DNA from: Candidatus Thiodiazotropha endoloripes
GTDB taxonomy: Bacteria > Pseudomonadota > Gammaproteobacteria > Chromatiales > Chromatiaceae
Assembly (NCBI GenBank): GCA_001709035.1
Contig: LVKA01000008.1
Location: forward strand, 992,001 to 1,056,000
Reading direction: 5' to 3'
DNA length: 64,000 nucleotides
In this document: positions 49,888-54,095 of the stretch, piece after piece
Layout: each line of letters begins with the position of its first letter
How positions within the stretch are numbered: position 1 is the stretch's first letter
Translations under genes and position numbers: made by a program
The notes under the pieces: generated by a model
Seen by the model: only the letters and a program-made list of their open reading frames with translations
What the model was told of the DNA's origin: nothing
The model's database searches: none

Positions 49888-49990
49888 AGTGTTGGTAACT
49901 CTCTGTAATTTATAAAAAAATTAAATAAAGAGAACCAATCCCATAATCATGGGTATAATCCGCCCTCATTTTTGTTTGCGGACCACCCTG

Positions 49991-51802
49991 ATGATCGAGA
50001 ATCTTAGAAATATCGCCATAATCGCTCACGTTGACCATGGCAAGACCACCCTTGTGGATGAACTGCTGAAACAGTCCGGCACTCTCGGCGAGCGATTCGG
50101 CAAGGTCGAGCGGGTGATGGATTCCAATGATCAGGAGCGGGAGCGGGGTATCACCATCCTCTCCAAAAACACCGCAATTCGCTGGAACGACTATCGTATC
50201 AACATCGTCGACACCCCCGGGCATGCGGATTTCGGTGGTGAAGTGGAGCGAGTGCTCTCGATGGTGGATTCGGTACTGCTGCTGGTGGATGCCCAGGAAG
50301 GCCCGATGCCGCAGACCCGGTTTGTAACCCAGAAGGCTTTTCAGCACGGCCTGCGGCCGATTGTGGTGGTGAATAAGATCGATAAACCCGGATCCCGTCC
50401 GGACTGGGTAATCGATCAGGTGTTTGAGCTCTTCGATCGATTGGGCGCCAGTGATGATCAGCTCGATTTTCCGATTGTCTACACCTCGGCGGTTGGAGGC
50501 TATGCGGGACTTGAAAGCAACATAACCGAAGGTGACATGACCGCGCTGTTCGAAGCCATTGTCAGCTACTGTCCTGCGCCTGAGGTGGATCCGGAAGCAC
50601 CTTTCCAGATGCAGATCTCCAATCTGGATTACAACAGCTACGTCGGCGCTATCGCGGTTGGTCGGGTGACCAGGGGAAGCATCAAACCCAATCAGCAAGT
50701 GATGGTGGTGAAGTACGATGGTGAGCAGCATCGGGCCAAGATCGGTGTGGTCTATGGTTATTTGGGGCTTGAGCGATTTGAAGTCAATGAGGCGACCGCT
50801 GGAGATATCATCGCGATCAGTGGTATGGAGGCGCCGAACGTTTCAGATACCCTGTGTGATCCTGAACATGTGGAGAGCATGCCCCCGCTGACGGTGGATG
50901 AGCCAACCGTCTCTATGACATTCCAGGTCAATACCTCGCCTTTTGCCGGTAAAGAGGGTAAATACCTGACCTCGAGACAGCTTAAGGAGCGGCTTGAGCG
51001 GGAGTTGATCCACAATGTGGCGTTGCGTGTCGAGGAGGGGACCGACCCTGAGAAATTCAAAGTCTCCGGACGGGGTGAGCTGCATCTCTCGGTACTGATC
51101 GAAAGTATGCGACGGGAGGGATTCGAATTGGCTGTCTCCCGCCCCGAGGTGATTTTCCGTGAGGTCGACGGTGAGATCTGTGAACCCTATGAGCAGTTGA
51201 CCGTGGATGTGGAGGAGGACAACCAGGGAACGATCATGGAGGCCCTGGGGACCCGCAAAGGTGACCTTAAGGATATGGTGCCGGATGGGAAGGGAAGAGT
51301 ACGGCTCGACTACATCATACCCTCCCGTGGACTGATCGGTTTTCAGACAGAGTTCATGACCAGCACCTCAGGTACCGGCCTGATCTACCATGTTTTCGAT
51401 CATTACGGTCCAGCCCAGCATGGGGGTATCGCACCACGTAAAAACGGTGTGCTGATCTCCAACAGCCAGGGCAAATCCCTGGGCTTCGCCCTCTATAACC
51501 TGCAGGAACGGGGCAGACTATTCAGCTCGCCGGGTGATGAGGTCTATGAGGGACAGATTGTGGGGATTCATGCCAGGGACAATGATCTGGTGGTCAATCC
51601 GCTGAAGGGTAAGCAGCTGACAAATATACGCGCAGCCGGCAAGGATGACGCCATTATTCTGACACCACCACTGCAATACAGCCTGGAGCAGGCGCTGGAA
51701 TTCATCGAAGATGATGAACTGGTGGAGGTCACGCCCCGGGAGGTTCGTATTCGTAAGAAGTACCTCAAGGAGCATGAACGAAAACGGGCTTCCCGGGAGT
51801 AG
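49991..51802 (+). CDS. typA: Ribosome-associated GTPase TypA/BipA
   Basis: 603 aa from the ATG at 49991. A translational GTPase involved in 50S assembly, cold growth and stress. G motifs: [15 protein letters not shown] (G1), [13 protein letters not shown] (G2), [15 protein letters not shown] (G3), [11 protein letters not shown] (G4) and [10 protein letters not shown] (G5). Then come the beta-barrel domain, two EF-G-like domains and the TypA-specific C-terminus ([27 protein letters not shown]). The open frame to 49949 is not supported. Confidence 0.97.
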
Positions 51803-51877: not shown

Positions 51878-52000
51878 AGAAAAAGCCCAACCGCAATCCT
51901 TGCGGCTGGGCTTACAGTCGTCGGCTTGGTTGGCTAAGCATTTCTTCCCTGTGCAATCCTTTGCTCTAAATCCCTGAAGTAACTTCCTTGATGACGACAA
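51878..52000 (-). ncRNA. Candidate CsrA/RsmA-binding small RNA, copy 1 of 4
   Basis: The minus strand encodes a ~123-nt RNA starting near GTCGTCATCAAGGA (51998-51985). It has five GGA motifs (plus-strand TCC at 51985, 51971, 51957, 51946, 51897), then the conserved GCTTAGCCAACCAA, then GACGAC (51922-51917), which can pair with the 5' GTCGTC. It ends in a terminator hairpin (GCCCAGCCGCA...TGCGGTTGGGC) whose loop carries AAGGA, followed by a T-rich run. Three paralogues follow upstream in the same orientation. Two GacA-box-like sites lie above the promoter. This is the arrangement of CsrB/RsmY/RsmZ-type CsrA antagonists (inference). Confidence 0.8.
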
Positions 52001-52053
52001 TTACAGTCTGACACAAAAATTTACATTTACTGTGGGAATTCGCACCATAAGCA

Positions 52054-52093
52054 TGTGAGATTTTTCGCAATTGAATGTAAGAATTTTCCTACA
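52054..52093. promoter_or_regulatory. Paired GacA-box-like sites of sRNA copy 1
   Basis: The distal site TGTAAG-AATTTT-CCTACA (52076-52093) matches the GacA/UvrY upstream activating sequence TGTAAG-N6-CTTACA with one mismatch. A weaker half-site, TGTGAG-ATTTTT-CGCAAT (52054-52071), lies exactly 22 bp closer to the RNA. Confidence 0.7.
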
Positions 52094-52323
52094 CTGCAAC
52101 CTATTGATTTATAAGGTTAATAATTGTGGTGAATTTGTGGAAATTGACCAATTTCAGTCATGATAGGAAAACTTGGCAGATTTCAGCGCTTCTTATTGGT
52201 TTTAGAAAGATGTCCCATGCCTTCCAAGCGTTTTTATTTCAGGTTTGCGGGCCAAGCTCATACTTTGGATGCAACTTCCGAATATGACGATCCATCGTAG
52301 TGAAGAGAATTTGTTCGGCCTGA

Positions 52324-52450
52324 AAAGATAAAAGCCCAACTGCGATCCTTGCAGTTGGGCTTACAGTCGTCGGCTTGGTTGGCTAAGCTTCCCTTCCCTG
52401 CAAAATCCTTTACGAAGTTTTCCCTTTAGAGACGTCCTTGATGACGACAA
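52324..52450 (-). ncRNA. Candidate CsrA/RsmA-binding small RNA, copy 2 of 4
   Basis: A ~125-nt minus-strand RNA. 5' GTCGTC (52448-52443) can pair with GACGAC before the terminator. Six GGA motifs, including CAAGGACG, TAAAGGATTT and GGGAAGGGAAG. It shares GCTTAGCCAACCAAGC with copy 1. The terminator has a perfect 10-bp stem (GCCCAACTGC / GCAGTTGGGC), the loop AAGGATC, and a T-rich tail. Length and element order equal those of copy 1; intervening bases differ, so this is a diverged paralogue and not a recent duplicate. Confidence 0.8.
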
Positions 52451-52503
52451 CTGAATTTTGACACAATTACTTACAGCAAACATGGGAATATTCACAATTT
52501 AAG

Positions 52504-52543
52504 TGTGAGATTTTTCTCTTATGGCTGTAAGAAAATTCTTACT
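52504..52543. promoter_or_regulatory. Paired GacA-box-like sites of sRNA copy 2
   Basis: Distal site TGTAAG-AAAATT-CTTACT (52526-52543), 11 of 12 consensus positions. Proximal weaker site TGTGAG-ATTTTT-CTCTTA (52504-52521), again 22 bp away. Confidence 0.7.
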
Positions 52544-52633
52544 TTAAAAGAACGGTGTCTGACAACATGTCGCCAGTATCTTTAAAGTAGAAGGATCCGG
52601 CTCAGTTTTTCCGGAGAATGAGGTGGGGGAAAT

Positions 52634-52756
52634 GAAAAAGCCCAACCGCAATCCATGCAGTTGGGCTCGATTGTCATCGGCTTGGTTGGCAAAGCTCCTC
52701 GTCCATCTACCATCCGTTGTGGCTTGTCCTGTAAAACGTCCTTGATTGACGACAAC
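52634..52756 (-). ncRNA. Candidate CsrA/RsmA-binding small RNA, copy 3 of 4
   Basis: A ~120-nt minus-strand RNA with six GGA motifs (CAAGGACG, ACAGGACA, ACGGATGG, ATGGACGAGGAGC, CATGGATT). The 5' TTGTCGTC can pair with GATGACAA before the terminator, with a G-U pair where copies 1 and 2 have G-C. The conserved block is GCTTTGCCAACCAAGC. The terminator stem is GCCCAACTGCA / TGCGGTTGGGC with GGA at the loop and T5 after it. Confidence 0.8.
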
Positions 52757-52809
52757 TAAATAATCGCACGTAATCTCTCGAATTGAATTGGGAAAAGTTA
52801 CCTTTGTTG

Positions 52810-52849
52810 TGTAAGAATCATCCTGTTGTCGTGTAGGAATTTTCCTACA
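52810..52849. promoter_or_regulatory. Paired GacA-box-like sites of sRNA copy 3
   Basis: Distal palindrome TGTAGG-AATTTT-CCTACA (52832-52849) and proximal TGTAAG-AATCAT-CCTGTT (52810-52827), starting 22 bp apart. Confidence 0.7.
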
Positions 52850-52920
52850 AGGGTTCTATCCACGGGTTTACAATCTACAAGCAGTGGCGATCAAGATGGC
52901 CATTTTCACCCATTTGAAAA

Positions 52921-53038
52921 AGTGAAAGCCCAACTGCAGTCCCTGCGTTGGGCTTTCTGTCATCAGCTTGTTTTGCTAAGCAACCTATCCATGGTTTACT
53001 TTGTGCGCTACAAGCCAGTTCTTCCTTGATGATGACGG
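52921..53038 (-). ncRNA. Candidate CsrA/RsmA-binding small RNA, copy 4 of 4
   Basis: The most diverged copy, ~117 nt on the minus strand. The 5' GTCATC (53036-53031) pairs with GATGAC before the terminator, a fully compensated change relative to GTCGTC/GACGAC in copies 1 and 2. Only three GGA motifs remain (CAAGGAAG, CATGGATAGG, CAGGGACTG in the terminator loop). The conserved block is reduced to GCTTAGCAAAACAAGC. The terminator stem is GCCCAACGCAG / CTGCAGTTGGGC and its T-run is interrupted. Confidence 0.7.
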
Positions 53039-53092: not shown

Positions 53093-53132
53093 CGTAAGAA
53101 TTGTCTTGTCAGCACATAGGGTGATTCTTACA
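53093..53132. promoter_or_regulatory. Paired GacA-box-like sites of sRNA copy 4
   Basis: CATAGG-GTGATT-CTTACA (53115-53132) has a perfect right half. CGTAAG-AATTGT-CTTGTC (53093-53110) lies 22 bp closer to the RNA. The distal site also lies 16 bp before the pip start on the other strand. Confidence 0.6.
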
Positions 53133-53147
53133 CTTAACAGATCGATT

Positions 53148-54095
53148 ATGAATGACCTCTATCCAGCCATAGAACCCTATAAGTCACAGCGGATTGCTAT
53201 TGATCACCACCATCTCTACATTGAAGAGGTGGGCAATCCTGCCGGGATCCCAGCGCTTTTTCTGCACGGCGGGCCGGGTGCCGGATGTGAACCTTACCAT
53301 CGGCAGTTCTTTGACCCGGAGCTTTACCGGGTCGTACTCTTTGATCAGCGGGGCAGCGGACGCTCAACGCCACATGCCTCATTGCAGGACAATACGACCT
53401 GGGATCTGGTTGAAGATATTGAACGAATCCGTGAGGCGCTGAAGATTGATAAATGGTTGCTGTTTGGCGGATCCTGGGGTTCAACCCTTGCATTAGCCTA
53501 TGCTCAGACCCACCCTGAGCGGGTGTCCGCGCTGATCTTGAGAGGTATTTTTCTCTGTCGTGATCAGGAGATCGAGTGGTTTTATCAGCAGGGTGCAAGT
53601 TGGGTCTTTCCCGATTATTGGGAGGATTTTGTTGCCCCGATACCTCAGCATGAGAGAGAAAATCTGCTGCATGCCTATTACCGACGATTGACCGGTGACG
53701 ATGAGATCTCCCGTATGGCAACAGCCAAAGCCTGGTCCGTCTGGGAGGGTAGAACCTCCAGCCTGCTGACCAATCCGTCTGTGGTCGGTTTTTTTTCAGA
53801 CCCCCATACGGCGCTCAGTCTGGCGCGTATCGAAGCGCACTATTTTGTCAATCATGCCTTTCTGCGCCCTGATCAGCTACTGAAGGAGGCGGCACAACTG
53901 GCCGGCATCCCCGGGACGATCGTGCAGGGGCGCTATGATCTGATCTGTCCAATGAAGTCTGCCTGGGAGTTGCACCAGGCCTGGCCCGACAGTGAATTGA
54001 AAGTTGTTGCGGACGCGGGTCACTCAGCGACAGAATCCGGTATCCGTAGTGCACTGGTGGAAGCCACTCAACACTACGCGAGATTGCTGGGATGA
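53148..54095 (+). CDS. pip: Proline iminopeptidase
   Basis: Releases N-terminal proline from peptides. 315 aa from the ATG at 53148; the open frame extends to 53106 but overlaps the sRNA regulatory sites. It is an alpha/beta hydrolase of peptidase family S33: oxyanion HGGPGAGCEP, DQRGSGRSTPHA, nucleophile in LFGGSWGSTLAL, Asp in VQGRYDLICP and His in VADAGHSATE. Its stop overlaps the dtd start (ATGA), so the two are coupled. Confidence 0.94.
   Translation: MNDLYPAIEPYKSQRIAIDHHHLYIEEVGNPAGIPALFLHGGPGAGCEPYHRQFFDPELYRVVLFDQRGSGRSTPHASLQDNTTWDLVEDIERIREALKIDKWLLFGGSWGSTLALAYAQTHPERVSALILRGIFLCRDQEIEWFYQQGASWVFPDYWEDFVAPIPQHERENLLHAYYRRLTGDDEISRMATAKAWSVWEGRTSSLLTNPSVVGFFSDPHTALSLARIEAHYFVNHAFLRPDQLLKEAAQLAGIPGTIVQGRYDLICPMKSAWELHQAWPDSELKVVADAGHSATESGIRSALVEATQHYARLLG

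Follow-up and report, generated by a model that had tools for sequence, protein, structure and literature searches.

Tandem Csr/Rsm-type small RNA genes of Candidatus Thiodiazotropha with a block complementary to the csrA leader

The small RNAs (sRNAs) of the Csr/Rsm class, such as RsmX, RsmY, RsmZ, CsrB and CsrC, are the textbook protein sponges and are contrasted with sRNAs that act by base pairing. They carry repeated (A)NGGA motifs and a Rho-independent terminator with GGA near its loop, and they are preceded by an 18-bp box of the GacA/UvrY type, given as TGTAAGN6CTTACA in PMC4682653. Here we describe a locus with these characters in Candidatus Thiodiazotropha endoloripes, within a window of 64,000 nucleotides (assembly GCA_001709035.1, contig LVKA01000008.1, positions 992,001 to 1,056,000), where four GGA-rich units of ~120 nt lie on the minus strand between typA and pip. 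As in the systems named, csrA and a gacA-type gene are present in the genome. Unlike those sRNAs, three of the units carry a block complementary to the leader of csrA, and Rfam scans gave no match to any unit. As judged from sequence, it is highly probable that these RNAs would both act as CsrA sponges and engage in real pairing with csrA mRNA, whatever the sign of the effect. Such co-evolution of a sponge RNA with the csrA leader would break the division between the two kinds of sRNA.

There is precedent in E. coli for one RNA that pairs with mRNAs and also binds CsrA through GGA motifs, namely McaS and GadY (PMC7652899). Unlike in those cases, the predicted pairing target here is the mRNA of the titrated protein itself. 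McaS and GadY pair with other mRNAs and are not known to be Gac-driven sponge RNAs. No description of a Csr/Rsm sRNA pairing with csrA or rsmA mRNA was found in the open-licence literature searched. A study of Pseudoalteromonas predicts a cis-antisense RNA to csrA, which is different from the present family, and imperfect pairing of three Csr sRNAs with a few mRNAs, not named in the passage concerned (PMC11882849); in Xanthomonas, overexpression of the sequestering sRNA RsmU is described as leaving rsmA mRNA and protein unchanged (PMC7694677). The term sRNA was not found in two transcriptome papers on Thiodiazotropha (PMC13137333, PMC12172469). On sequence grounds, it is the putative csrA-pairing module that sets the array apart from known Csr/Rsm sRNAs.

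An earlier note on this stretch, made from its sequence, had called four genes of this type in tandem unusual. High copy number as such is known elsewhere: there is a tandem rsmX-1/rsmX-2 pair in Pseudomonas brassicacearum, with up to five rsmX in Pseudomonas (PMC7911923), and RsmZ1-7 plus RsmY in Azotobacter vinelandii (PMC4824345). A 2014 review gives two to three, distal Csr/Rsm sRNAs (PMC4211561). The tandem precedent found is two, as compared with four tandem units here, each with its Gac-type box and the fourth degenerate.

Csr/Rsm features of the array

The four units were located where the earlier note had placed them, at spacings of 450, 305 and 283 nt (450, 306 and 284 in the note), in a genome of 4.87 Mb and 25 contigs. 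Their positions in the window are given below.

51878 to 52000, minus strand: unit 1 (u1), CsrA-sponge-like sRNA gene; 5 GGA, all ANGGA; 141.5 bits; terminator called
51883 to 51913, minus strand: hairpin of the unit 1 terminator; AAGGA at its loop
52327 to 52450, minus strand: unit 2 (u2), CsrA-sponge-like sRNA gene; 6 GGA, all ANGGA; terminator called
52633 to 52755, minus strand: unit 3 (u3), CsrA-sponge-like sRNA gene; 6 GGA, 4 ANGGA; terminator called
52921 to 53038, minus strand: unit 4 (u4), diverged; 3 GGA; csrA-complementary block lost; support 1.000 for its positional clade

A recount of GGA motifs returned the numbers of the earlier note (5, 6, 6 and 3 in u1 to u4). ANGGA occurs 5, 6, 4 and 3 times, as compared with 0.6-0.9 in dinucleotide shuffles, and is most weakly enriched in u4 (p 0.026). 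Bare GGA is weakly enriched over the shuffles in u1 (p 0.058), u2 (p 0.012) and u3 (p 0.044), and no such enrichment was found for bare GGA in u4 (p 0.30).

The 5' and 3' ends of every unit are complementary (GTCGTC with GACGAC), with a G-U pair in u3 and an A-U pair in u4. This closing stem, which the note had described as covarying, is 98.0% paired and shows two-sided changes in four of its six pairs in a MAFFT alignment of 59 family members that was made without fitting to the structure. For the whole structure including the terminator, the covariation score was 0.416; shuffles gave 0.176, and slid controls no more than 0.111. Each of the four units is closed by a 3' hairpin with GGA at the loop, also as the note had described; a terminator scan calls those of u1, u2 and u3, whereas in u4 the hairpin is present but not called.

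A box of 18 bp precedes every unit, with centres 84, 84, 85 and 85 nt upstream of u1 to u4.

52076 to 52093, no strand assigned: GacA/UvrY-type box of unit 1, TGTAGGAAAATTCTTACA, 12/12 positions of TGTARGN6CYTACA
52526 to 52543, no strand assigned: GacA/UvrY-type box of unit 2, AGTAAGAATTTTCTTACA, 11/12
52832 to 52849, no strand assigned: GacA/UvrY-type box of unit 3, TGTAGGAAAATTCCTACA, 12/12
53115 to 53132, no strand assigned: weaker GacA/UvrY-type box of unit 4, TGTAAGAATCACCCTATG, 10/12, on the 5' side of pip

Across the family defined below, 82 of 95 members have their best box 61-65 or 84-85 nt upstream (array units of five assemblies account for 20 of the 95); for shuffled upstream DNA the value is 1.3%. 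Between these distances there is a difference of ~21 bp, which is about two helical turns. The family, with its box ~63 or 84 nt upstream, is unlike E. coli csrB, for which PMC4682653 gives about 182 nt. The genome contains three perfect TGTARGN6CYTACA boxes, two of them in the array. When one mismatch is allowed there are 11 distinct sites, as compared with 24 for the backwards control, and therefore single boxes elsewhere mean little. The gacA-type gene scores 280.6 bits against an NCBIfam cut-off of 280, and one of 14 control genomes passes. As for csrA, whose absence the earlier note had named as speaking against its reading, two PF02599 matches above cut-off are present in the genome.

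The ANGGA enrichment, the covarying stem, the terminators (three of four called), the placed Gac box, the presence of csrA and a gacA-type gene, and the four orthologous lineages described below support the proposal of the note that the units resemble CsrB, RsmY and RsmZ; by these sequence criteria it was incomplete, not wrong. We infer that the units are Gac-controlled CsrA sponges, with expression and CsrA binding predicted. By sequence, the array is a member of the Csr/Rsm functional class, but of no Rfam family. The comparison with the Rfam Csr/Rsm models that the note had suggested gave no match to any of them: no family matched in the window at the gathering score, the matches up to E 5 over the array were eight chance matches to unrelated families and included none to Csr/Rsm families, and the scan of 20 related loci gave no match. 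Genome-wide, the best scores were 10.7 bits for RF00018 (CsrB; cut-off 71) and 18.6 bits for RF00166 (PrrB_RsmZ; cut-off 44), the remaining Csr/Rsm families having been scanned on the window and the loci.

Two observations concern the boxes themselves. The third perfect box (L102, G000:C19:296941-296958) lies between genes labelled by eye as a MerR-type regulator and a BLUF-domain protein; no sRNA was apparent there by eye, and Gac boxes as markers of further sRNAs in the genome were rejected. Half-box-like copies of TGTAAGAAT are present at 52810-52824 and 53093-53107, between the main box and u3 and u4, respectively. By analogy with the partial sites near E. coli csrB and csrC, they are perhaps a second GacA site.

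Complementarity of the sRNA block to the csrA leader

The earlier note had pointed to a conserved GCTTAGCCAACCAA block in the units without explaining it. This is the sequence that is complementary to the csrA mRNA leader. In the family, GCCAACCAAGC(C) is the most conserved stretch outside the two stems, and in this genome the exact complement of the block, CGGCTTGGTTGGC, is located 83 nt upstream of the start of csrA. Four copies of the 12-mer GGCTTGGTTGGC are present in the whole genome of 4.87 Mb, namely opposite u1, u2 and u3 and in the csrA leader.

51922 to 51934, minus strand: block of unit 1, GCCAACCAAGCCG, 13 nt complementary to the csrA leader
52371 to 52383, minus strand: block of unit 2, 13 nt complementary to the csrA leader
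52678 to 52692, minus strand: block of unit 3, TTGCCAACCAAGCCG, 15 nt complementary to the csrA leader

At the leader site, an uninterrupted complementarity of 10 nt or more is found for 50 of 71 units from 52 genomes, as compared with 4 of 355 shuffled leaders in which a run anywhere was counted. The site begins 66-117 nt before the ATG (median 91, 46 leaders). Of 49 leaders, 32 contain a perfect extended -10 element, as compared with 0.5% in shuffles, and the site follows 25-47 nt downstream of it; the site is therefore placed inside the predicted csrA transcript, near its 5' end, the transcription start being a prediction. In folding predictions, the sRNA block has an openness of 0.61, as compared with 0.44 for the rest of the RNA, and in unit 1 it occupies the loop of a small GCUU/AAGC hairpin. 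Pairing of the block with the 3' terminator arm, as in an antiterminator, was considered and rejected by eye, the block being constant while the arms change (L8, L12).

Block and leader site occur together. Covariance models R1, R2 and R3 were built from the units, and R2 and R3 were searched at E<=0.01 per genome. Leaders were obtained from 109 of the 132 csrA-bearing genomes (111 csrA loci read, with G118 and G018 lacking a recognised start); all 63 csrA-bearing genomes positive for R2 were taken, 62 of them usable, together with a part of the R2-negative ones. A site matching at least 10 of 12 positions within 160 nt of csrA was found in 52 of 62 sRNA-positive but only 7 of 47 sRNA-negative genomes, and in 0.6% of shuffled leaders. 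Model R3, built from sRNA sequences alone with the block columns included, then recovered an sRNA in six of the seven R2-negative genomes with the site (G014, G015, G032, G065, G093 and G106, but not G111, which is 62% complete), as compared with 6 of 40 without it; at 35 bits the numbers were 5 of 7 and 3 of 40. At that score, 57 of the 109 genomes have both sRNA and site, 11 have the sRNA only, 2 the site only and 39 neither. Several genomes classified as having the sRNA only pair through a shifted or changed site (G030, G078, G083, G110 and G037). G012 pairs through its second csrA gene, which carries the site, and the leader of G010 is cut by a contig end.

The two sequences also change together. 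Block and site were aligned separately to the consensus and then compared in the 52 genomes with both sequences, 50 of which entered the permutations after G010 and the first csrA of G012 had been left out for want of a recognisable element. Of 600 core cells in these 50 genomes, 536 are Watson-Crick and 16 G-U pairs. Own partners gave 682 paired cells, compared with 648.5 +/- 5.2 for swapped partners, and none of 2000 permutations was as high. When each of 24 genera was represented by a single genome, the score of own partners was not reached by swapped ones in any of 3000 resamplings. At the genus level, double changes numbered 7.47 for own and 1.80 for swapped partners, and 0.0003 of resamplings were as high. 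Compensated double changes are found in six genera (g8, g9, g29, g30, g44 and g54): two in G029 (G-C to A-U and C-G to A-U), G-C to A-U in G030, G-C to C-G in G044, and C-G to U-A at the edge of the core in G008, G009 and G054. Two double changes in G129, which are not counted towards the six genera, are doubtful because its block is not clearly alignable; in the resampling this genome could be drawn as one of four choices for its genus. As far as these alignments go, block and site co-vary across species, with the relatedness of the genomes partly controlled.

A further 18 units came from 17 genomes (nine found by R3 only and eight R2 genomes unused before). In 15 of the 18, the best duplex with the own csrA leader forms at the block, and in 12 of these 15 at most 10 of 200 shuffled leaders were as good. 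When the sRNA was limited to a 25-nt zone, this 5% level was reached by 14 of 16 further units and, in the first set, by 60 of 69, as compared with 5 of 52 tested against the leader of a random sRNA-negative genome; the automatically set zone is misplaced in G032, G106, G141, G015 and G046, and missing for two further and two first-set units. In G141 (L344) the best duplex is elsewhere, but inspection by eye shows 10 nt of complementarity between the block CAAGACCAAG and the leader CUUGGUCUUG (L200, also CTTGGTCTTG); both depart from the family consensus, with a changed pair on both sides. Letters are likewise changed on both sides in G037 (AAUACCAACCAGG with UCUGGUUGGUAUU) and G128 (CACUCAACCAA with UUGGUUGAGUG).

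It could be argued that the units are pure CsrA sponges: the block would be there for RNA structure, Hfq binding or turnover, and would match the csrA leader only incidentally. The classical features (ANGGA, Gac box and stem) are all in place, CsrB and RsmZ are described as acting by sequestration (PMC7652899), and unit 4 and some second copies do without the csrA match. We regard this explanation as improbable because an incidental identity would not co-vary, whereas here no other place in the genome has the match, block and leader site are found together across the 109 genomes, and compensatory double changes are seen.

Several points weigh against a dual action on CsrA protein and csrA mRNA. 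Unit 4 has lost the block, and its longest run complementary to the csrA leader is 7 nt, at another place. It is among 21 of the 71 units without a 10-nt run at the site, which include several second copies; five of the 21 pair there by shorter or G-U-interrupted runs (G008, G029, G036, G043 and G044). The remaining 48 of the 600 core cells are mismatched. Among the further units, G077 and G106 form a slightly better duplex off the block, G077 keeping 9 pairs there. Model matches without a clear site occur in G022, G035, G081, G091 and G140, which are weak (26-38 bits) and in which the sRNA sequence itself was not read, and also in G129 and G034 (8 nt only). The association of sRNA and site in the 57/11/2/39 table (Fisher p about 4e-17) carries no phylogeny correction, and the permutation and Fisher tests are only partly free of the effect of shared ancestry. 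Unusual accessibility was not predicted for the leader site (0.39, as compared with 0.41 for other windows). Energies of whole-length RNAduplex predictions were set aside as non-discriminating, with 20 of 200 shuffles as good for u3 and 22 of 200 for u4. Simple occlusion of the Shine-Dalgarno sequence would require a site nearer to it. On the minus strand, the sequence upstream of the units contains no recognised sigma-70 promoter, and the analysis as a whole proceeds from sequence.

Predicted action on CsrA and its message

The csrA leaders contain on average 4.35 GGA between site and ATG, as compared with 2.06 in shuffles, and all 46 have GGA or GGG at -16 to -5. Both features are compatible with autorepression by CsrA, which is known in E. 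coli (PMC7652899). If the units are transcribed and are bound by GacA and CsrA as predicted, Gac signalling through GacA/UvrY would turn on the sRNAs, the ANGGA repeats would bind CsrA dimers and withdraw CsrA from target mRNAs, and the block 5'-UUUGCCAACCAAGCC-3' would pair with the csrA leader at a place ~18-40 nt past the predicted start of transcription and 66-117 nt upstream of the ATG. A single RNA would then target CsrA at two levels, those of protein and mRNA.

If pairing takes place, the most likely outcome, held with modest confidence, is that the sRNA lowers csrA expression, because under titration alone CsrA would cease to repress its own synthesis and the pool would fill up again. 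Repression of csrA would stop the rise of CsrA after titration and sharpen the Gac switch. Since the site is far from the Shine-Dalgarno sequence, candidate mechanisms are that an RNase is recruited, that a standby site is interfered with, or that bound CsrA is delivered to the leader. The last of these, in which the sponge RNA would guide its bound CsrA dimers to the GGA-rich csrA leader by pairing, is an unlikely refinement in our estimate; if true, autorepression would be enforced just when CsrA is titrated. An RNA would then guide CsrA in repressing its own mRNA, and with four genes the array would be adapted in dosage to the very high level at which the symbiont transcribes csrA.

A serious rival to repression, although a doubtful one, is that pairing works in the reverse direction: abundant csrA mRNA would capture the sRNAs and limit the sequestration of CsrA, resulting in homeostasis. 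This is a sub-case of dual action. The distance of the site from the Shine-Dalgarno sequence fits it, and so does the abundance of the message, the median for csrA being 78,450-85,249 transcripts per million (TPM) in Ca. T. endolucinida from three hosts (PMC13137333). Among the rows of Table 1 covered, csrA has the top TPM in two hosts and is second to rbcS in Codakia orbicularis, and PMC12172469 lists csrA among the shared, most highly transcribed genes. The strain that gave the TPM values need not carry the array.

Activation of csrA is another sub-case, which we consider unlikely: the sRNA would stabilise the mRNA or open its leader, and so refill CsrA after titration as a form of homeostasis. 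Pairing at the 5' end can protect mRNAs, and the GGA-rich leader would allow a remodelling of CsrA autorepression. On the other hand, sequestration of the Shine-Dalgarno sequence by the site was not seen as a consistent structure in 20 folded leaders, and a switch of this kind was rejected.

One RNA would control the activity of CsrA and presumably its synthesis, a feedback loop that we did not find described. This is of interest for lucinid symbionts, where the csrA transcript ranks among the most abundant, and the family provides candidate Csr sRNAs for Thiodiazotropha and relatives, where Rfam scans gave none.

Distribution, copy number and neighbours

The family is present in over half of the sampled genomes of one GTDB family: model R2 matches 69 of 146, and R3 matches 85 of 146, in 41 of 61 genera, the lowest-scoring matches being uncertain. 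At class level, 14 of 369 genomes match at E<=0.001. Eleven of these are outside the GTDB family and mostly weak; in two, G160 and G393, a CCAACC block and a complementary leader site can be recognised by eye if G-U is allowed, whereas the longest-run computation itself chose other places. The other nine, with no kept CCAACC block and leader site, look like chance. Two Marichromatium pip loci (L010, L011) gave no family-model match.

Family members were read in 65 assemblies. A set of 114 matches was reduced to 95 members by removal of 19 on the opposite strand of a member, a result of palindromic terminators. The anchor of synteny is typA, which is present on 25 of the 29 best loci (L110-L138). 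In 38 of the 65 assemblies the opposite strand carries a member no more than 150 nt from the 3' end of typA, and in 8 more a member is present within 2 kb; in 19 there is no member near typA on the stretch read. The neighbours in the window are:

49949 to 51802, plus strand: typA, 3' end toward the array; anchors synteny in 38 of 65 assemblies
53145 to 54095, plus strand: pip (prolyl aminopeptidase), neighbour only, outside the system

The four-unit array occurs in five assemblies, namely that of the window, G136 (L110), L003, L004 and L005. A single typA-side copy is present in L006-L008 and G024, and in G007, G063, G096 and G118 of the window's genus, the last four of which have a second, dispersed copy. 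Among the close relatives, which are Candidatus Thiodiazotropha or clam symbionts, Pip identity is 96% for L003, 95% for L004 and 73-74% for L006-L008. This is the comparison of copy number in related genomes that the earlier note had suggested, and its claim of a long-term retention of all copies is supported: in a tree, the units that share a position in the five assemblies group together as a separate clade (support 0.927, 0.997, 0.953 and 1.000 for u1 to u4). Because of these separate clades, the array most likely arose once, before the five lineages split, and retained all four units. The typA-side gene would have been amplified to four in one Thiodiazotropha clade, with u1-u3 keeping the pairing block. 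Unit 4, which lost the block and half of its GGA motifs, is probably specialised; kept as it is in five assemblies, it must, on this sequence evidence, do something else or less.

Tandem copies within one intergenic region, without a recognised promoter on the minus strand, might also be taken for non-expressed or mobile repeats with palindromic ends. This is hardly tenable in view of the separate clades of the unit positions in five assemblies, the constant place next to typA in 38 of 65, the covarying stems and the fixed spacing of the boxes.

The earlier note had counted four copies. Four are indeed in tandem, but the genome total is five: a first conclusion of only four copies, based on R2 alone, was dropped when R3 revealed a dispersed fifth one (L311, G000:C10:897216-897343, minus strand). 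It has GTCGCA/TGCGAC ends, a box with 10 of 12 positions 62 nt upstream, and the block TTTGCCAACCAAT, which keeps most of the csrA-complementary sequence. Its flanking reading frames resemble those of the dispersed copies in G063, G096 and G118.

In genus g20 (L130, L132, L139, L145 and L149), the typA-side copy is 1.4-1.7 kb from typA, and its run at the leader site is below 8 nt, as compared with 10 for the dispersed copy of the same genome; perhaps there is a division of labour, as with unit 4. Tandem pairs of the family, ~260-620 nt apart, are found in other genera as well (L140 in G036, L150 in G047 and L334 in G037). The second PF02599 match in the array genome is a divergent CsrA paralogue of 62 bits (L002, G000:C15:220466-220618). 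A second match is present also in the array-bearing G136 (61.6 bits), and G096 likewise has two; the second paralogue may be linked to the amplified array.

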